Assembly: GCF_004378255.1 (NCBI RefSeq)
Contig: NZ_SNQG01000005.1
Coordinates: 248,001-312,000, forward strand
Source: Mucilaginibacter phyllosphaerae
GTDB taxonomy: Bacteria; Bacteroidota; Bacteroidia; Sphingobacteriales; Sphingobacteriaceae
Reading direction: 5' to 3'
Length of the DNA stretch: 64,000 nt
Shown: piece after piece, positions 8,542-18,997 of the stretch
How positions within the stretch are numbered: the first letter of the stretch is position 1
How the letters are laid out: each line of letters starts with the position of its first letter
Made by a program: the position numbers and the translations under genes
The notes under the pieces: generated by a model
Databases searched by the model: none
The model's input: the letters and a program-made list of their open reading frames with translations, nothing else
What the model was told of the DNA's origin: nothing

Positions 8542-8871
8542 ATGAAAATGATTCATCATGATATCACAGGGCACCTTGACATTATTATATCTGATAAAGA
8601 GGACGAATTTGAAGGCATTGTAGAAAAGTGGCAGGAGGTGATGATTCATGGTGACCCAAACGGACTTAGATCTTTAGCGCGCCTTTTGTTAGAACTTGCC
8701 GATACTAACCAGGAGAAAATGAAAAAATTACCAATAGGTGCAAGAGAGCACTATCATTTGTTTCCAAATATAAATACCAGCAAAAGTTCGGTGGAAATTA
8801 TTCTTGGCAGACTTGATGCGAAACGAACTGGCAGTTTCTATGATGCATATATAGAAAAGGATAAAGACTAA
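8542..8871 (+). CDS. Small orphan protein, possibly Imm32-like
   Basis: A 109-residue cytoplasmic protein with no signal or membrane helix. The order of elements (GDPNGLRSLARLLLELAD helix, then a His-containing EHYHLFP strand, then SSVEIILGRLD) reminds me of small immunity proteins of the Imm32 group; this is a memory of pattern only. Strong internal AT bias and no partner gene fit a recent arrival or an orphan. No toxin with a matching domain is visible within several kilobases. The gap 8305-8541 holds only fragments of intergenic repeats. Confidence 0.55.
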   Translation: MKMIHHDITGHLDIIISDKEDEFEGIVEKWQEVMIHGDPNGLRSLARLLLELADTNQEKMKKLPIGAREHYHLFPNINTSKSSVEIILGRLDAKRTGSFYDAYIEKDKD

Positions 8872-8972: not shown

Positions 8973-9785
8973 CTACTTCCCAAAAGCCCATTGCAAAAAC
9001 TTAGGCATGGCTTTTCCCCAGGTTTCCGGGTTATGCGTGCCGTTTAGTACTTCCAGGTATTGGATATCGGCAGGGCGCTGGTAGCCTTTGGCAAGCAGTT
9101 CTTTAATAATGTCTATAGTATCGTCAATAGAATCTATAATGCCATTCTTGTTGCGGTCGGCAGTTTCATCTTTAGTGCCGGTTTGCAGCCAAAACTTTAA
9201 TTCGGGTTTGCCGATGGTATTTTTCAGCATGCTGTGCATCAGGCGGTCTTCATCGGTGTAACCCTTAATCAGGTCCTTACTTCTCCACCAAAAAGATGCC
9301 GAGAACACGCCCACTTTATCAAATAATTCCGGATTATTCCAGGCAATATCCATCGCGCTTAATCCACCCAGCGAAAAGCCGGCGAATGCGGTGACCTCAA
9401 AATGCTCGATGCCCGTATGCTCCTTTATAAATGGCAAAAGCTCTGTTTGGATAAATTTGGTGTATGTATCTGCTTTGGCACCGCGCTTTTTAAAGTCGGG
9501 CTTGCCTGCAATACCATATTCTTGTATGCGTTCTTCGCCCGCATGTATGGCTACGGTAAGCAAGGGCTTTATGCAGTTTCGGTCGTATAAGTTTTGCAGT
9601 GTATCGGCCAGCTTTAAATCTTCCAGGTCCTGGCCATCGTTCAATAAAAGCAGGTTAAGAGGCTCTGCCACAGCATTATCCCCAGGCATCAGCAGGGTAA
9701 GGGTAACTTCGCGTTCTAATACTTTCGATGCTATGGTTAGTTCCTGCTGCGCTATATTCATTTCAATATCTGTACTGTAGTACAT
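8973..9785 (-). CDS. Putative esterase (alpha/beta-hydrolase, enterochelin-esterase-like)
   Basis: A 270-residue alpha/beta hydrolase of the putative esterase family (PF00756 type). The nucleophile elbow is FAGFSLGGLSAMD around residues 134-146, with Ser in GFSLGG. The catalytic acid probably lies in the DRNKNGIIDSIDD region and the His in LNGTHNPETW near residue 250. No signal peptide is visible, so it should act in the cytoplasm. It is transcribed away from a second esterase gene that begins a ligase cluster, and the two could share a control region. Substrate unknown. Confidence 0.82.
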   Translation of the reverse strand: MYYSTDIEMNIAQQELTIASKVLEREVTLTLLMPGDNAVAEPLNLLLLNDGQDLEDLKLADTLQNLYDRNCIKPLLTVAIHAGEERIQEYGIAGKPDFKKRGAKADTYTKFIQTELLPFIKEHTGIEHFEVTAFAGFSLGGLSAMDIAWNNPELFDKVGVFSASFWWRSKDLIKGYTDEDRLMHSMLKNTIGKPELKFWLQTGTKDETADRNKNGIIDSIDDTIDIIKELLAKGYQRPADIQYLEVLNGTHNPETWGKAMPKFLQWAFGK

Positions 9786-9913: not shown

Positions 9914-10621
9914 TTGACTGAACAATATCACCGCTGGCATTCTCATAACCTGAACCTTGATCTTGAAATGCTGGTTTTTGGCGACAGGGGCTTCCCGGTA
10001 ATACTTTTCCCTACTACCAAAGGCCGCTATCATCAAAATAAAGATTTTGGCTTGATAGATAGTGTAAAGTGGTTTGTAGACGAGGGACTGGTGAAAATTT
10101 ACTGCCCGGATACCATCGACGACCGCAGCTGGTATGACAAAGGCATCCACCCTGCCGACCGTGCCCGCAACTACGCCTGGTACGATAAAATGCTGGTAGA
10201 AGAACTTGCCCCCTGGGCCATGCACGAAACCGCTGTGGGCAAAGTAGCTGTTGCAGGTTGTAGCTTTGGCGGCTATCACGCGGCAAATTTCGCCTTTAAA
10301 CACCCCGAAATGGTAGCGCATTTATTCACTATGGGCGGCGCTTTTGATATTACCATGTTTACAGATGGTTACTACGATGATAACATATTTTATAACAACC
10401 CGGTAGATTTTCTGCCCGGCAGCAACAAGCCCGAACTTTGGCAGATGAACATTGTACTGGGTACATCAGAGCATGATATGTGTAAGGATTATAATATCCG
10501 CATGGCTAACATCCTGAAAGAAAAAAACATAAACCACTGGCTGGATATTCGCCCGTTTGCCGATCATGATTGGCCAATTTGGAAAGAAATGTTTCCGCAT
10601 TATTTAAGCACGATTAAGTAG
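9914..10621 (+). CDS. Putative esterase at the head of the peptide-ligase cluster
   Basis: A 235-residue alpha/beta hydrolase of the putative esterase family. The nucleophile elbow is VAGCSFGGYHAANFAF (residues 113-128), and the likely catalytic His is in FADHDWPIW near residue 218. The start is TTG at 9914; no ATG gives the conserved N-terminus (WHSHNLNLDLEMLVFG), so TTG is preferred. It is followed on the same strand by an ATP-grasp ligase, a GCS2-type ligase, an amidotransferase and a permuted ATP-grasp-like protein. In such a cluster a hydrolase could release or trim the product. Confidence 0.8.
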   Translation: MTEQYHRWHSHNLNLDLEMLVFGDRGFPVILFPTTKGRYHQNKDFGLIDSVKWFVDEGLVKIYCPDTIDDRSWYDKGIHPADRARNYAWYDKMLVEELAPWAMHETAVGKVAVAGCSFGGYHAANFAFKHPEMVAHLFTMGGAFDITMFTDGYYDDNIFYNNPVDFLPGSNKPELWQMNIVLGTSEHDMCKDYNIRMANILKEKNINHWLDIRPFADHDWPIWKEMFPHYLSTIK

Positions 10622-10737
10622 ACATGAGATTTGAGATAAGAGATCTGAGATAGGGTCTTACAGTTTATGGATTAGGATTTACAATTTTCCTTTTTAGAAT
10701 TTAGAAATTAGCGTTTAGAATTTAAAAACATACTACC

Positions 10738-11808
10738 ATGAAAAAAATAGGCATCTTATTCGGGCAGGAAAATTCTTTCCCCCAGGCATTTGTAGACAGG
10801 ATAAACGAAAAGGCCGAAAAGGGAATTTCTGCTGAATTTGTACGCATTGATAAAATGATGCAGGGCGAGCCTTTAGGTTACTCCGTAATTGTAGACCGTA
10901 TCTCTCAGGATGTACCATTTTACCGGGCATCCTTAAAAAATGCTGCTATCACCGGCACAGCGGTTATCAACAATCCATTCTGGTGGAGCGCTGATGAAAA
11001 ATTCTTCAACAATGCTTTAGCTGTTAAATTGGGGGTACCTGTACCTAAAACCGTTTTGCTGCCTTCAAAAGACCATCCGGATAGCACAACCGACCGCTCT
11101 TTCCGCAACCTGGCCTTCCCATTAGATTGGGACGGGATATTTGATTATGTTGGTTTCCCGGCATACATGAAACCGTTTGACGGCGGCGGCTGGCGCGATG
11201 TTTACAAAATTGCAGACAAGGAAGACCTTTGGGCAAAATTTGCCGAAACCAAGCAACTGGTAATGCTGCTGCAGGAAGAGATCATTTTTGATGATTATTT
11301 TCGCTGTTACTGCATTGGCGGCAAGCACGTGCGCATTATGCAGTATGAGCCGCGCAACCCGCATCACCTGCGTTATGAGCACGGCAAAGCCCCGGCATCT
11401 AAAAAAATGTTGGATACCATCACCAAATATGTGCTGCAATTAAACCAGTATTTAGGTTACGATTTTAACACCGTAGAATTTGCCGTACGCGATGGCATAC
11501 CATACGCTATTGATTTTTGCAACCCCGCACCGGATGCCGAAGTAACCAGCGTTGGCCAGGATAACTTTGAATGGGTGGTAGAAACCGCTGCATCTTACGC
11601 CATAGAACGCGCCAAAGCCCAAAAAGACAACAAGGATAACCTTACCTGGGGCGAATACGTACGTACCGGAGTGGCAGGGAAACCGCTTGTTGCTGCAGCC
11701 AAAGCACCAAAAGCCGATACCAGCGTTGGCACGGTTGACCATGCTATAAGTGAAGAAGCGAAACCTAAAAAGAAAGTGCCAGCGCCTAAAAAGGTGGCGA
11801 AGAAATAA
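10738..11808 (+). CDS. ATP-grasp ligase, RimK/glutathione-synthetase-like
   Basis: A 356-residue ATP-grasp enzyme, expected to join a carboxylate to an amine through an acyl phosphate. The N-terminus IGILFGQENSFP is the pre-ATP-grasp fold. FPAYMKPFDGGGWRDVY near residue 138 is the ATP-binding lysine and glycine-rich loop, LLQEEIIFDDYFRCY carries the adenine-contacting QE pair, and GIPYAIDFCNP near residue 257 supplies the Mg-binding D and N. A lysine/alanine/proline-rich tail (about residues 318-356) is unusual and may be disordered. It lies between an esterase and a YbdK-like ligase. Confidence 0.85.
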   Translation: MKKIGILFGQENSFPQAFVDRINEKAEKGISAEFVRIDKMMQGEPLGYSVIVDRISQDVPFYRASLKNAAITGTAVINNPFWWSADEKFFNNALAVKLGVPVPKTVLLPSKDHPDSTTDRSFRNLAFPLDWDGIFDYVGFPAYMKPFDGGGWRDVYKIADKEDLWAKFAETKQLVMLLQEEIIFDDYFRCYCIGGKHVRIMQYEPRNPHHLRYEHGKAPASKKMLDTITKYVLQLNQYLGYDFNTVEFAVRDGIPYAIDFCNPAPDAEVTSVGQDNFEWVVETAASYAIERAKAQKDNKDNLTWGEYVRTGVAGKPLVAAAKAPKADTSVGTVDHAISEEAKPKKKVPAPKKVAKK

Positions 11809-11815
11809 AATTATA

Positions 11816-11928
11816 GTGTTGTCATTTCGAACGAGGTACGAGGAGAAATCTTTTACACCATGCAATAGCATTGCAAAGTTCGCTAAAATCGCTTGTATAA
11901 GATTTCTCTCTATCGTTCGAAATGACAC
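11816..11928. repeat. Composite cruciform repeat (GTCATTTCGAAC family)
   Basis: A 14-base outer arm GTCATTTCGAACGA (11821-11834) pairs with 11913-11926. An inner arm GAGAAATCTT (11843-11852) pairs with 11899-11908. A third small palindrome (TGCAAT-AGC-ATTGCA) sits at 11861-11875. This sequence type is a common dispersed intergenic repeat in Sphingobacteria. It separates the ATP-grasp and GCS2-type genes. Confidence 0.8.
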
Positions 11929-11958
11929 TTACATGAAACCAATAACCCCTAACCGATC

Positions 11959-13056
11959 ATGAACGAGTTTACCTTAGGTGTTGAAGAAGAATTTATGGTG
12001 ATTGACCCCGTAACCCGGGAACTGCAATCGCATGACCAAAGAATTGTGGATAGTGCGCAAAAAATCCATGAGGATCAGGTAAAAGCCGAAATGCACCAGG
12101 CTGTTGTAGAGGTGGGCACCCACATTTGCCGCAATACCGAAGAGGCGCGTAAAGAGGTAGGTAAGCTGCGTACAACCGTAGCCCAGCTTGCGGGTGATAT
12201 TGGCCTGCGCATTGGCGCTGCCGGCACCCATCCCTTCTCGCATTGGCAGCATCAACTGATAACAGATCATCCCCGGTATTTCGAGATCGTAGACGAGTTA
12301 CAGGAAGCGGCACGCTCCAACCTTATCTTCGGGTTGCATGTACATGTGGGCATCCAGTCGCGGGATATGGCCATACACATTGCCAACCAGGCACGTTATT
12401 TTTTGCCGCACGTTTATGCATTATCAACCAATTCCCCTTTTTGGGAAGGCCGGAACACGGGCTATAAATCATTCCGCACCAAGGTGTTTGACAAATTTCC
12501 GCGTACGGGCATCCCCGATTATTTTGACAGCATTGAAGATTACGACAGGTATATTAAACTGCTGGTAAAAACCAATTGTATAGATAATGCCAAAAAAATC
12601 TGGTGGGACCTGCGCGTTCACCCTTTCTTTGAAACCATTGAATTCCGCGTTTGCGATTGCCCGATGCTGATAGATGAAACCATGACTTTTGTGGCGCTGT
12701 TTCAGTGTATCTGCGCCAAGCTATACAAGTTGCGCCAAAGCAACATGAAATTCATTACTTATAACCGTGCTTTGATCAATGAAAACAAATGGCGCGCCGC
12801 ACGTTATGGCATTGATGGCAAAATGATAGATTTTGGCAAGGAACTTGAAGTGAACACGCGTGCGCTAATACTGGAACTTTTAGATTTTATTGATGACGTA
12901 GTAGACGACCTGGGTTGCCGAGACGATTTGCAATATGTACACAAAATATTAGAAAACGGCACCGGAGCCGACAGGCAGCTGGCCATTTACCAGCAAAGTA
13001 ATAACTTTGTAGACGTGGTGGACTACATTACATCGCAAACTTTAAAGGGGATATAA
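11959..13056 (+). CDS. Carboxylate-amine ligase, YbdK/GCS2 family
   Basis: A 365-residue glutamate-cysteine-ligase-2 family enzyme. The N-terminal LGVEEEFMVIDP motif (residues 6-17), the FGLHVHVGI motif near 125-133 and WWDLRVHPFFETIEFRVCD near 214-232 are the conserved ATP/Mg and substrate sites of the YbdK/COG2170 group. Members join gamma-glutamyl or similar carboxylates to amines; the E. coli homologue has weak glutamate-cysteine ligase activity. Here it sits with two ATP-grasp-type proteins and an amidotransferase, pointing to a multi-step small peptide or amide product. Confidence 0.93.
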   Translation: MNEFTLGVEEEFMVIDPVTRELQSHDQRIVDSAQKIHEDQVKAEMHQAVVEVGTHICRNTEEARKEVGKLRTTVAQLAGDIGLRIGAAGTHPFSHWQHQLITDHPRYFEIVDELQEAARSNLIFGLHVHVGIQSRDMAIHIANQARYFLPHVYALSTNSPFWEGRNTGYKSFRTKVFDKFPRTGIPDYFDSIEDYDRYIKLLVKTNCIDNAKKIWWDLRVHPFFETIEFRVCDCPMLIDETMTFVALFQCICAKLYKLRQSNMKFITYNRALINENKWRAARYGIDGKMIDFGKELEVNTRALILELLDFIDDVVDDLGCRDDLQYVHKILENGTGADRQLAIYQQSNNFVDVVDYITSQTLKGI

Positions 13057-13100
13057 AAGCCCCACCCAAACCCTCCCCTAAGGAGAGGGCTTATTGAAAG
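13055..13100. repeat. GC-rich palindromic intergenic repeat
   Basis: CCCTCCCCTAAGGAGAGGG (13071-13089) is an imperfect palindrome preceded by a pyrimidine-rich run. The same type of C-run/G-run element recurs at 42166, 53071, 53148 and 63522, so it is a dispersed family. Confidence 0.6.
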
Positions 13101-13163
13101 GTGTTAGGCAACAAAATATAAAAGTAAATTCTCCACCCTACCGGTAGAGATTAGATAGATTAA

Positions 13164-14009
13164 ATGAATACAGATAAACCGGAAGTGAGAGTAGCCATAT
13201 TAGACCTTTACGAAGGTGTGGCTAACGAAGGGATGCGGGGTTTCCGGGAGATACTGGGCCGTTACAAGGTACAGCACAACCTTGATCTGACCTATCAGAT
13301 TTTTGATGTGCGCCTGAAAGGGCAGGTACCCGATACCTCCTTTGATGTGTACATCTCCAGCGGCGGGCCGGGCAGCCCGCTGGATAGTGAAGGTACCGAG
13401 TGGGAAAAGAAATACTTTCGCCTGATAGATAAACTGGAAGCACATAACAAACAGGCAGGCACTATCAAAAAGCATGTTTTTTTTGTATGCCATTCGTTCC
13501 AGCTGATGTGCCGTAAATATAGATTAGGGGATATTAACCTGAGGCGTTCGGCGTCATTTGGCATATTGCCGGTGCACATGACCGGTGCGGGGAATAACGA
13601 GCCTGTTTTTAACGGCCTTGCCAACCCTTTTTACACAGTAGATTCGCGCAGCTGGCAGGTAGTAAACCCGGATATGAGCAGATTTAAGGAACTGGGCATG
13701 GAAATACTGGCATTGGAAAAAGAACGACCATATGTAGATTTGCCGCGGGCTATAATGGCCATCCGTTTTAACGACTATTTTTTCGCCACACAGTTCCATC
13801 CCGAGGCTGATGCACACGGCATGAGTGTAATGCTGCAGCGCGAGGATAAAAAAGAAGATGTGATACGTGAGCATGGCGAAGGCAAATACCGCGAGATGCT
13901 GGAGCGTTTAGAAGACCCGGATAAAATTATACTTACCCAAAATACCATTATCCCTAATTTTCTGGATGAAGCGATATTGAGTTACCAGAGGGTAGATATT
14001 GGAGAATAG
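13164..14009 (+). CDS. Class I glutamine amidotransferase-like protein
   Basis: A 281-residue protein with a triad glutamine amidotransferase domain. SSGGPGSPLD (residues 65-74) forms the oxyanion loop, Cys109 in FFVCHSFQ is the nucleophile, and His212 and Glu214 in QFHPEAD complete the triad. The usual G-x-C-x-G-x-Q elbow is altered to V-C-H-S-F-Q, which may change substrate use. The C-terminal 60 residues are highly charged and lie outside the family core. A free-standing amidotransferase next to ligases could supply ammonia or remove a gamma-glutamyl group; which one cannot be told from sequence. Confidence 0.85.
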   Translation: MNTDKPEVRVAILDLYEGVANEGMRGFREILGRYKVQHNLDLTYQIFDVRLKGQVPDTSFDVYISSGGPGSPLDSEGTEWEKKYFRLIDKLEAHNKQAGTIKKHVFFVCHSFQLMCRKYRLGDINLRRSASFGILPVHMTGAGNNEPVFNGLANPFYTVDSRSWQVVNPDMSRFKELGMEILALEKERPYVDLPRAIMAIRFNDYFFATQFHPEADAHGMSVMLQREDKKEDVIREHGEGKYREMLERLEDPDKIILTQNTIIPNFLDEAILSYQRVDIGE

Positions 14010-14014
14010 CTAAT

Positions 14015-14090
14015 GCTCTCGCGGGTTTAGCGTAGCGTAACCCACGAGAGCACAAGGTAAGCTTTCGGCTTACGGCAGCTGAAAGCTGCA
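14015..14090. repeat. Three tandem hairpins between amidotransferase and last ligase gene
   Basis: GCTCTCGCGGGTT with its complement (14015-14051), TAAGC-TTTCG-GCTTA (14058-14072) and GCAGCT-GAA-AGCTGC (14076-14090) follow one another. They lie within a same-strand gene run, so they could attenuate or protect the transcript, or simply be repeat debris. Confidence 0.55.
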
Positions 14091-14148
14091 GCCATGCTTT
14101 ACCACAAGCCACAGGCTCGCGGCACCAAAACAAATTAATAAGATCAAT

Positions 14149-15345
14149 ATGAACCCATCAGCCAGAAAAACATTCAACCAAAACTTCACAGAAGAGAAGT
14201 ATGCTGATTTTTTGGTAGACCTGAATACCGGCCTTAAAAAACCGATAGAGTTTCGCATTGCCGAAACACCGGTATTTTTAACTGATGATTTTAGGGATAA
14301 GTTATTACAAGCCGGAGAGGAAATAATAGCTGCCATTCTTAAACCCGATTTTAAGGAAATAAGCGAACGCGCCATTCCTGATAAATGGCGGGTAGCTAAC
14401 GAGAACGATCATGCGCATTTTATTGCTTTGGATTTTGGGGTTTGTAAAGATGATGCCGGTAACCCTGTTCCTAAGCTGATAGAAATGCAGGGGTTCCCCT
14501 CGCTGTATGGTTTCCAGGCACATTTGGCAGAAAATTACAGGCATGCTTATAATATTCCCGGTAACCAAACCATATTTTTTAATGGCTTAAGCAAAAGCGG
14601 CTATTTAGATTTACTTCGTAAAACCATTATAGGCCCCTACCAGCCCGATGAGGTGGTGCTGATGGATGTAGACGCCCCCAATCAAAAAACTGCGGTAGAC
14701 TTTTACATCACCGAAGGCTACATTGGCACACCTGTAGTTTCCCTGGCAGATCTGATACAGGAGGGCGATCAGCTTTTTTACAAAACGGCCGTTGGCGAAA
14801 AGAAACGCATCCGCCGAATTTATAACCGGCTAATATTTGATGAAATAGATAACGACCCCGAGATATTTAACAAAGTAGCAGACATTCGTAAACCGCTGGA
14901 TGTGGAATGGATAGCGCATCCAAACTGGTTTTACCGTATCAGTAAGTTTACTATGCCTTTTTTACAGGGCGATTATATCCCAAAAACACAATTTTTGCAT
15001 GAGGTAAAAAACATTCCGGAAGACCTGCAGAATTATGTTTTAAAACCCCTGTTCAGTTTTGCAGGGCAGGGTGTTATCATCGATATTATGGATGGTGATA
15101 TCGAACAGATTCAGGATCCGGAGAACTGGATCCTGCAGGAAAAAGTGACCTACCAGCCTGTTTTAGAGTCGCCCGATGGTGGGGTTAAAATAGAGATCCG
15201 CCTGCTGTACCTTTGGCCCGATGGTGATGCCGGGCCCACACTTGCCGTAAACCTGGCCAGGCTTAGTCGCGGTAAAATGATAGGCGTTAGATATAATAAA
15301 GATTTTGACTGGGTTGGCGGCACCGTAGCTTTTATGCACAAATAA
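14149..15345 (+). CDS. Circularly permuted ATP-grasp-like protein
   Basis: A 398-residue protein that I would not assign by name. KLIEMQGFPSLYGFQ near residue 104 resembles the Mg-binding E-x-N-x-x-PGL segment, VLKPLFSFAGQGV near residue 297 resembles the ATP-binding Lys and glycine loop, and WILQEKV near 326 resembles the adenine contact. The Mg site comes before the nucleotide loop, which is the order in circularly permuted ATP-grasp enzymes such as the glutathionylspermidine-synthase type. It is last in the ligase run. An amide ligase acting on the product of the upstream enzymes is the best inference. Confidence 0.65.
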   Translation: MNPSARKTFNQNFTEEKYADFLVDLNTGLKKPIEFRIAETPVFLTDDFRDKLLQAGEEIIAAILKPDFKEISERAIPDKWRVANENDHAHFIALDFGVCKDDAGNPVPKLIEMQGFPSLYGFQAHLAENYRHAYNIPGNQTIFFNGLSKSGYLDLLRKTIIGPYQPDEVVLMDVDAPNQKTAVDFYITEGYIGTPVVSLADLIQEGDQLFYKTAVGEKKRIRRIYNRLIFDEIDNDPEIFNKVADIRKPLDVEWIAHPNWFYRISKFTMPFLQGDYIPKTQFLHEVKNIPEDLQNYVLKPLFSFAGQGVIIDIMDGDIEQIQDPENWILQEKVTYQPVLESPDGGVKIEIRLLYLWPDGDAGPTLAVNLARLSRGKMIGVRYNKDFDWVGGTVAFMHK

Positions 15346-15616: not shown

Positions 15617-18600
15617 ATGTCTTCTAATAAGCAGATATTTCAGGCTGATAACCCCGGCAGGTGGACCCGTTTTAAATGGTTAAGCCGCATCATTATTATT
15701 ATATTGGTTGTTGGCGCTGTGGCTGCGGTAATTACCGTTACCTCAACTGAATATCCTACGCTACCTATCCTTGATCCGGTTCCGCAACGCATCGGTAAGG
15801 AGGAAATGGAAGCCCTCAAAAAATCAAAAAAATACAAGGACTTTAAAATAGAAAAAGCCGAAATAGCCGTACTGGCAAAAGCACGCCGTTTACATCAGCT
15901 TAAGCATCCCAACAATGCCAACCGTATAAATGCTGCTTTTTATAAAGCCTGGGAAGCGCAGGCCTATACCTCCCTTGCAGAAAATATGCCCCGTTTAGAT
16001 ATGGTGGTGTCTGAAGGCTTTTCGTTTTCGCGTAACGCAGATACACTCAAAGCTACCATAGATACGGGCCTGATCAATCTTAACAAAAGATATAAAAAGC
16101 AGGTGCTTCTTACCTTATCTAATTACGTTAACATCGATAATAAATCGGGCGAATATGATACTAAAGATGTTGAACGGATCTTTAAAAATAAAAAGCTGCG
16201 TGTAGCTTTTATCAACAGCATGGCCGATAGGCTGCAGCATTATAACTTTAATGGAATAAATGTTGACCTGGAAGATATTAAAGACCGAAACAGCAAAGAG
16301 TACATCGCTTTTCAGAATGACCTGTACAGTATTTTTAAAGCCAAAGGGCTGTTAGTTACCCAAAACATATTACCGAATGATGATGAGTACGACCTGAAGC
16401 GCTTACAAAAAATAAACGACTTTTTGTTTGTAACGGCTATTGACGAGCATACCGAGGGCACCAACGCCGGCGATGTGTCCCACCAGCATTGGGTAGAAGA
16501 GATTTTAGACCAGGTGTGTTCTGTTATCCCAAGCGAAAAGGTTATTTTAACCTTTGCAGGCGGTGGTTTCGACTGGCCCGAAGGTAGTATAGGGCAGGCC
16601 ATAGGTTATCAGCAGGCTATTAGTACTGCACAGCAAAAAAAGCAAAAAATAATTTACGATCCGCTATCCGCCAACCTCCATTATACTTATCTGGGTAACG
16701 ATGGTGTAGACCATACCGTTTATTTTACCGATGCCGCCACCAATTTTAATGTTATCCGCATGGCAGACGACTGGGCCACAGGCGGTGTTGCTTTATGGCG
16801 CTTAGGTGCCGAAGATCCTCGCTTATGGAGTTTCTTCCAAAAAAACCTTTCGATAGATTCTCTTAAAAAAACAGGGATAGATGTTAAACGGCTAACCACG
16901 GTTGGCCTAAGCAACAACATAAGCTATGCCGGCGACGGGGAGGTACTGGATCTGATAACCGTGCCCAACAAAGGCGAAATTAAGGTAAGCCTTGATACCA
17001 CAAACTACACCATAACTAACCAGGATTATATAACCATTCCTACCAAATACGTTATTCGCAAGTATGGTTATAAGCGGGGTAAAGTTGTTTTAACTTTTGA
17101 TGATGGCCCCGACCCTGATTTTACGCCACGGATACTGGATATCTTAAAAAAAGAAAAAGTACCGGCATCCTTTTTTGTAGTTGGGTCGATGGTAGAAAAA
17201 AACATACCGCTGCTTAAACGTATTTATGATGAGGGGTACGAAATTGGTAACCATACCTACCTGCATCCGGATATTTCAACTATCAGCATAGAACGTGTAA
17301 ACCTGGAACTAAACGCTACCCGTAAACTGATAGAATCGGTAACGGGGCGCAGTACTATCTTATTCCGCCCTCCGTTTAACGCCGATGCCGAGCCGCAAAC
17401 CCTGGCAGAAGTGATCCCCGTGGCAGAAAGCCGCAGGCAAAGCTACATTACCATAGGCGAATCTATAGACCCGTGGGACTGGCAGCCCGGTGTAACCGCC
17501 GATAGCATCATTGCGCGTACCATTCGCCAAAAAGATAACGGCAGTATGATATTGCTGCACGATGCCGGGGGCGATACCCGCGAAGAAACCGTAAAGGCAC
17601 TGCCGGCCATCATCCATTATTTTAAAAAGAATGGTTACGAGTTTACCACCATTGCCGATATTTTGGGTAAAAGTAAAGACGACCTGATGCCGATGCCAAC
17701 CAGCGACGATAAAACCTTTTGGGGCCGTTTTTATGATGTTGTTGTGGTAGGCTTTTTTATAGGCAACCGGTTTTTATTTTACTTATTTCTGTCGGCCATA
17801 TTTTTGGCTATGGGCCGCATTATACTCATAGGTATATTGGCTACAAAACAGTTTAACAATAACAAAAAAATAGATGCCGCGCCGCACCCCCAGCCGCCAA
17901 TAAGTATTATTGTACCGGCCTACAACGAAGAAATTACGGCTATTAAAACTATCCAAAGCCTGCTAAAAACCGAGTATCCTAACTTCAACATCATTTTTGT
18001 GGATGATGGGTCGAAGGATAAAACATACCAGGTAGTGGCCGAAGCTTATGGCAGCCACCCGTTGGTAAAAGTGCTTACCAAGCCAAACGGAGGCAAAGCA
18101 TCGGCGTTAAACTTTGGTATTACCCATGCCGAACATGATTTTGTAGTTTGCATTGATGCCGATACCCAGCTAAAAACAGATGCCATATACCACCTGATGG
18201 CCTATTTTACCGATAAGGAAATTGGCGCGGTGGCAGGCACCGTTAAAGTGGGAAACGAAACGAATATCATTACCAAATGGCAATCTATCGAGTACATTAC
18301 TGCCCAAAACATGGATCGCCGCGCGTTTGATATCATCAACAGCATTACGGTAGTACCCGGCGCTATCGGGGCATTCCGCAAAGCGGCTATTTTCCAGGCA
18401 GGCGGCTTTACTTATGATACCCTGGCCGAGGATTGCGACCTGACCATGCGTATCCTGAAACAAGGCTACGTTATAAAAAACTGTGCCGAGGCAATTGCCT
18501 TTACCGAAGCCCCCGAAAGCCTTAACGCCCTGCTTAAGCAGCGTTTCCGCTGGAGTTTTGGGGTGATCCAAAGCTTTTGGAAAAACCGGGATGCGCTGTT

Positions 18601-18997
18601 CAACAAAAAATTCAGCTATTTTGGTATGGTAGGGATGCCAAACATCCTCATCTTCCAGATCATCTTGCCCCTGTTCTCGCCCCTGGCAGACCTGATCATG
18701 ATCCTGGGTATTTTTGGCAGTCATCCCGAAAAACTGCTGGTATTTTATGTGGCATTCCTGATGGTTGATTTTATTGTAGGCTTTATAGCCTTCCGGATGG
18801 AGAAAGAAAAATACTATAAGCTGGTGTATCTGATACCGCAGCGGTTTATTTGGCGGCAGCTGATGTATTACATCCTCTTTAAATCAATCCGCAAGGCGCT
18901 TAAAGGTGAATTAAATACCTGGGGCGTGCTAAAACGTACAGGCAACGTAACTTTAAAAAAGGGCGAACTGGCAGGCGAAGAGCAAAAGATGCCGTAA
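15617..18997 (+). CDS. Trifunctional GH18-like / polysaccharide deacetylase / GT2 synthase fusion
   Basis: A 1126-residue membrane protein. A signal-anchor helix lies at residues 24-45. Residues about 75-420 are a GH18-type barrel with the acid motif VDLED (Glu219). A NodB deacetylase follows with TFDDGPDPD (493-501), NHTYLHP (545-551), an RPPFN motif and LLHDAGG. After a membrane helix near 705-735 comes a processive GT2 domain starting at about 760 with DAD (847-849), AEDCD (937-941) and QRFRW (975-979), then C-terminal membrane helices. Synthesis would be cytoplasmic while deacetylation and hydrolysis are outside. A poly-N-acetylglucosamine-like polymer is the likely product, by analogy with PgaB and PgaC. 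Confidence 0.9.
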   Translation: MSSNKQIFQADNPGRWTRFKWLSRIIIIILVVGAVAAVITVTSTEYPTLPILDPVPQRIGKEEMEALKKSKKYKDFKIEKAEIAVLAKARRLHQLKHPNNANRINAAFYKAWEAQAYTSLAENMPRLDMVVSEGFSFSRNADTLKATIDTGLINLNKRYKKQVLLTLSNYVNIDNKSGEYDTKDVERIFKNKKLRVAFINSMADRLQHYNFNGINVDLEDIKDRNSKEYIAFQNDLYSIFKAKGLLVTQNILPNDDEYDLKRLQKINDFLFVTAIDEHTEGTNAGDVSHQHWVEEILDQVCSVIPSEKVILTFAGGGFDWPEGSIGQAIGYQQAISTAQQKKQKIIYDPLSANLHYTYLGNDGVDHTVYFTDAATNFNVIRMADDWATGGVALWRLGAEDPRLWSFFQKNLSIDSLKKTGIDVKRLTTVGLSNNISYAGDGEVLDLITVPNKGEIKVSLDTTNYTITNQDYITIPTKYVIRKYGYKRGKVVLTFDDGPDPDFTPRILDILKKEKVPASFFVVGSMVEKNIPLLKRIYDEGYEIGNHTYLHPDISTISIERVNLELNATRKLIESVTGRSTILFRPPFNADAEPQTLAEVIPVAESRRQSYITIGESIDPWDWQPGVTADSIIARTIRQKDNGSMILLHDAGGDTREETVKALPAIIHYFKKNGYEFTTIADILGKSKDDLMPMPTSDDKTFWGRFYDVVVVGFFIGNRFLFYLFLSAIFLAMGRIILIGILATKQFNNNKKIDAAPHPQPPISIIVPAYNEEITAIKTIQSLLKTEYPNFNIIFVDDGSKDKTYQVVAEAYGSHPLVKVLTKPNGGKASALNFGITHAEHDFVVCIDADTQLKTDAIYHLMAYFTDKEIGAVAGTVKVGNETNIITKWQSIEYITAQNMDRRAFDIINSITVVPGAIGAFRKAAIFQAGGFTYDTLAEDCDLTMRILKQGYVIKNCAEAIAFTEAPESLNALLKQRFRWSFGVIQSFWKNRDALFNKKFSYFGMVGMPNILIFQIILPLFSPLADLIMILGIFGSHPEKLLVFYVAFLMVDFIVGFIAFRMEKEKYYKLVYLIPQRFIWRQLMYYILFKSIRKALKGELNTWGVLKRTGNVTLKKGELAGEEQKMP

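Follow-up and report, generated by a model that had tools for sequence, protein, structure and literature searches.

Iyer et al. 2009 is said to have predicted amidoligase gene clusters that mix ATP-grasp and GCS-type ligases with hydrolases (peptidases), and may describe clusters such as the one analyzed here. The same mixture of ATP-grasp ligase, GCS-type ligase and hydrolase is found at this locus; the fold of its last ligase (E) and the exchange of two of its enzymes for others are evidence from the present analysis. A literature search of papers other than Iyer et al. 2009 gave no earlier description of this gene set. For YbdK, the closest described relative of the GCS-type enzyme, we know of no established in vivo substrate. 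Relatives of E in fold include the peptide-spermidine ligases YgiC and YjfC, as well as Cp1B, an NRPS-independent pseudodipeptide synthase in which an RxD...ExN motif is required (PMC12568646). This motif is kept in YgiC, YjfC and glutathionylspermidine synthetase (Gss).

The locus lies in a 64,000-nucleotide window (the whole stretch of DNA analyzed) from Mucilaginibacter phyllosphaerae, where the five + strand open reading frames that a sequence-only reading had placed at 9914–15345 are all present at those limits. Gene A (9914–10621), which begins with a TTG start codon at 9914, encodes an alpha/beta-hydrolase (esterase) identified by an Esterase/abhydrolase domain match. It is followed by B (10738–11808), a RimK-like ATP-grasp ligase of 356 aa (NCBIfam rimK_fam, E-value 1.7e-7), C (11959–13056), a YbdK-type carboxylate-amine ligase of GCS2 fold (GCS2, 7e-62), D (13164–14009), a class I GATase-fold enzyme with an altered elbow (GATase, 4.6e-9), and E (14149–15345), a circularly permuted ATP-grasp protein with the glutathionylspermidine-synthetase/YjfC fold, as judged from a fold match of its AlphaFold2 model. 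The Pfam and NCBIfam matches agree with the domain identities proposed earlier for A through D, and the fold of the predicted structure does so for the permuted ATP-grasp assignment of E. The same reading had counted three different ligase folds; the cluster holds three ligases of two folds, ATP-grasp (B and E) and GCS2 (C), because B and E are both ATP-grasp enzymes and D is not a ligase. On the – strand, a divergent PF00756 esterase (est0m, 8973–9785; Pfam 2e-26) is a sixth conserved member and is counted in the unit. A gene that adjoins E in Mucilaginibacter (F, 15617–18997), a GT2/deacetylase fusion of 1126 aa with GH18-like, polysaccharide deacetylase and PgaC-like GT2 domains, was rejected as a member, as it is found solely within Sphingobacteriaceae and tracks the location of E. 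A small Imm32-like protein (PF15566) is encoded at 8542–8871 of the window, and a simple pattern for the Bacteroidota promoter motif gave no match between the genes.

E, the key ligase of the pathway proposed below, escapes Pfam and has no NCBIfam match over the cut-off. A model built from 20 relatives (pLDDT 90.1) was compared with known structures by Foldseek and VIA-align, and its full-length fold matches are YjfC (Z 26.2), YgiC (25.8), Gss (25.0) and Cp1B (22.4). Against the synthetase domain of Gss and the peptide-spermidine ligases, the alignment covers 330–349 residues at an rmsd of 3.3–4.0 (Z 24–26), and the yeast, human and soybean (homo)glutathione synthetases follow at Z about 23–24. 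Ordinary ATP-grasp enzymes align at Z about 8, and with the C-terminal part alone. At the level of sequence, the hhalign match to Gss, YgiC and YjfC is weak, though collinear (E-value 0.0015–0.0019), and unlike those enzymes E lacks a GSP_synth Pfam match over the cut-off (PF03738; none for E of the window, best of 20 relatives at E-value 0.0018). PF03738 likewise has no match in the genome as a whole.

Seven residues of E (Asp95, Glu112, Gln114, Lys299, Glu349, Arg351 and Arg371) are invariant in 118 of 118 sequences from across the phylum. E has in common with YgiC, YjfC and Gss the full-length fold, the KP P-loop and two residues of the catalytic motif, its Asp and its Glu; as placed by the weak hhalign alignment, these two are invariant in all 118 sequences, whereas the Arg of RxD is absent (Ala, Thr, Val or Gln stands in its place) and the Asn of ExN is an invariant Gln. 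With Arg lost and Gln in place of Asn, the donor or acceptor may differ from those of the peptide-spermidine enzymes. The operon also differs from YgiC, YjfC and Gss in holding two further ligases. Cp1B, from the fungal E-64 pathway, has the same fold as E and likewise forms an amide as a standalone enzyme beside a second ligase, but it is only 12% identical to E over the structural alignment, and its partners (an oxygenase, a decarboxylase and an ANL amide synthetase) are all missing from this cluster. We infer that E represents a new family of the glutathionylspermidine-synthetase fold, probably active as a ligase but with an altered substrate site. Few NRPS-independent peptide-amine ligase folds are in use in biocatalysis, and E would bring a new family to them. 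In one family of bacteria, an in-frame fusion places E behind a sodium:solute symporter (L158, 7637–10240; 867 aa) or E directly adjoins one (L177, 8790–11369), and two other genomes of that family have no symporter at E. An Amidohydro_3 hydrolase adjoins E at L159–L161 and L176.

The co-linearity of A through E is not due to chance. All five genes are present in 64 of the 100 E-bearing loci fetched, with the divergent esterase beside 62 of these 64, and the arrangement A-B-C-D-E plus divergent esterase recurs in Mucilaginibacter, Pedobacter, Rufibacter and others. When the neighbors at 89 loci were clustered, the same six genes formed the most widely common set, and the remaining frequent neighbors were restricted to Sphingobacteriaceae. 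Within the genus, E occurs in 17 of 36 genomes; most of the 17 keep the order, and a few have the genes at two places. Scattering of the genes in close relatives, which the sequence-only reading had set against a cluster, is not what is found: B and C are present in every one of the 17. Among the 19 same-genus genomes that lack E, B occurs in three and C in three, two of those genomes being incomplete. Apparent cases of E alone in some Mucilaginibacter were discounted, B and C being located elsewhere in those same genomes. In one Mucilaginibacter (G021, contig 7, 2849–3912), B is split across two frames and the cluster is also broken at contig ends.

Across the phylum, roughly one in three of the broadly sampled genomes has the unit, which is inherited as such. 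E is present in 59 of the 198 Bacteroidota genomes sampled, and these 59 contain B in 57 cases, C in 55, D in 38, and C together with B in 53, unlinked cases included. Association with E is strong over the 198 genomes (Fisher 1e-33 for B, 5e-37 for C and 4e-16 for D, phylogeny being ignored). B is present in 19 of 19 families with E and C in 18; the exception, f27, keeps B, D and E. B, C and E are often unlinked yet co-occur, as in genomes G115, G085 and G181. The sequence-only reading had also set against a cluster the case of YbdK working alone as a glutamate-cysteine ligase; biochemically C could still do so, but its co-occurrence with B and E in those 53 genomes speaks against it. The A–E genes are thus a functional unit that extends across the phylum. 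Conservation of C within the genus is nearly that of TypA, which speaks for an old, vertically kept metabolism with losses, and a search for B or E on plasmids gave no match. In Puia, 8 kb separate C from D; this stretch was considered as a site of additional pathway enzymes and set aside, since the genes there are unrelated.

The slot of E can be filled by another ligase. In 11 genomes with B and D and without E, a protein of ∼450–470 aa (X) lies between B and D, and in a search of the phylum the strong matches to X come from these 11 genomes alone, which are also precisely those with D but no E; a weaker relative of X is present in one E-bearing genome. The variant cluster reads (A)-B-X-D-esterase at L179, L180, L183, L184 and L185. 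X is also a circularly permuted ATP-grasp protein, PF14403-like (over the cut-off in L179), that carries RxD...ExN and matches 3n6x by profile at 5e-8. The second Foldseek match of E is also 3n6x, and X and E have no recognizable sequence kinship. Because X is confined to genomes with D and without E, at the slot of E, the two are very likely alternative enzymes for the same step.

D is subject to a similar replacement. Its model (pLDDT 91.7) has the class I GATase fold, with DnfC, TM1158, homoserine O-succinyltransferase and the gamma-glutamyl peptidase GGP1 near-tied as nearest folds at Z 21–23. D shares a Cys-His-Glu triad (Cys109, His212 and Glu214, conserved in 87 sequences) with Arabidopsis GGP1 and with further enzymes of the class I GATase fold. 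It differs from them in its weak sequence family matches and in the nucleophile elbow, which is altered, as the sequence-only reading had noted: it reads CHSFQ in place of Gly-x-Cys-x-Gly, with Cys109, Ser111 and Gln113 invariant and His110 and Phe112 conserved to at least 90%. At two deep-branching loci (L165 and L166), the exact position of D, between C and E, is taken by an M29 metallopeptidase (B-C-M29-E). Because a peptidase occupies the slot of D there, a hydrolytic role is favored over ammonia delivery, and D is most likely a hydrolase of gamma-glutamyl compounds or of peptides, not an ammonia donor.

In A, the nucleophile Ser117 is in the sequence GCSFGG, and Ser117, Asp188 and His218 are each retained by 97% or more of the 66 relatives compared. 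B has no Pfam match; its alignment shows KP-GGG, QE, Glu247, Asp259 and Asn262 to be invariant. The C-terminal tail of B is rich in Lys, Ala and Pro and very variable in length; deeper branches have a short tail or none. By sequence, C matches YbdK (structure 1r8g), and it exceeds the cut-off of the NCBIfam equivalog PRK13515 (NF010039; 536 bits against 371).

The gene set, its order and co-inheritance, the folds, the catalytic residues and the slot replacements are shown by the present analysis, and the interpretation of the locus as a peptide or amide biosynthetic cluster, already favored by the sequence-only reading, is the one best supported by the comparative data, B and C being inherited with E whether linked or not. 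We consider it fairly probable that A–E constitute one carrier-free, NRPS- and ribosome-independent pathway, in which successive ATP-driven ligations build a small peptide or amide. In the order of steps and with the substrates that we infer, C would form the first amide, of gamma-glutamyl type or similar, B would attach a further amino acid, and E, or X in other lineages, would form the last amide, most plausibly by capping the peptide with a (poly)amine. D, or M29 in its slot, would trim an amide of an intermediate or of the product, and the two esterases could process an ester or take part in turnover. Several points stand against such a pathway: E has lost the Arg of RxD and has Gln for the Asn of ExN, C is missing in f27, D is missing in 21 of the 59 E-bearing genomes, the profile match of E to Gss, YgiC and YjfC is weak, and the near-tied best fold matches of D include amidotransferases and acyltransferases. 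More tentatively, the product could be an amine-capped gamma-glutamyl peptide, made by an unrecognized phylum-wide Bacteroidota pathway with interchangeable E/X ligases and D/M29 peptidases. Identification of the product would reveal the roles of several protein families together.

The absence of a visible ribosomal precursor, recorded in the sequence-only reading, holds in relatives as well. A conserved short precursor gene was sought, and compact relatives have no space for one: the overlaps at C-D and D-E reach a few tens of bases, and the A-B and B-C gaps go down to 10 bases. A precursor peptide within the operon, of the graspetide type, was rejected because the intergenic space in these relatives is too small, though one might be encoded at another place in the genome.

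The ligases could instead serve a glutathione-like thiol pathway, in which C is a gamma-glutamylcysteine ligase, B or E the second ligase, and D a gamma-glutamyl peptidase for turnover. The genome has no match to GshA (PF04262), and it has no GshB because its sole PF02955 match is a cyanophycin-synthetase-like protein; judging from this gene content, glutathione is not made in the usual way. These absences, together with C being the sole GCS2 protein (PF04107) of the genome, would suit such a pathway, as would the likeness of E to eukaryotic (homo)glutathione synthetases and of D to GGP1. We nevertheless regard it as unlikely: three ligases are kept where two would suffice, a patchy distribution within one genus would be odd for a main thiol, and one family has B, D and E without C. 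On contig 23 of genome G000, a second permuted ATP-grasp gene (a 488-aa open frame) and a cyanophycin-synthetase-like protein are found at 158115 and 171500, 13 kb apart.

Modification of a protein, with B adding residues, C and E adding or capping, and D or M29 removing the tag, draws on the RimK-like sequence of B, on its Lys/Ala-rich tail, which could bind a macromolecule, and on the hydrolase in the operon, which fits the logic of a removable tag. The operon contains no conserved gene for a substrate or tag, however, the tail is reduced or missing in deeper branches, and the fold relatives of E work on small peptides, so that this explanation appears quite improbable. Least credible is amine uptake and breakdown of the PuuA–PuuD kind, in which C, B or E would glutamylate an imported amine and D would remove the glutamyl group: the hydrolase-like fold of D and the symporter and Amidohydro_3 genes at E point that way, but the symporter is found in two genomes only, and the gene families conserved next to the cluster include no oxidase, aminotransferase or aldehyde dehydrogenase.

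The A–E genes, which we favor as a ligation pathway, have one further neighbor in a single family: directly 3′ of B, both L187 (6747–9231) and L189 (6703–9185) encode a histidine ammonia-lyase that exceeds the HutH cut-off. E of that family is located elsewhere, beside an Amidohydro_3 hydrolase.
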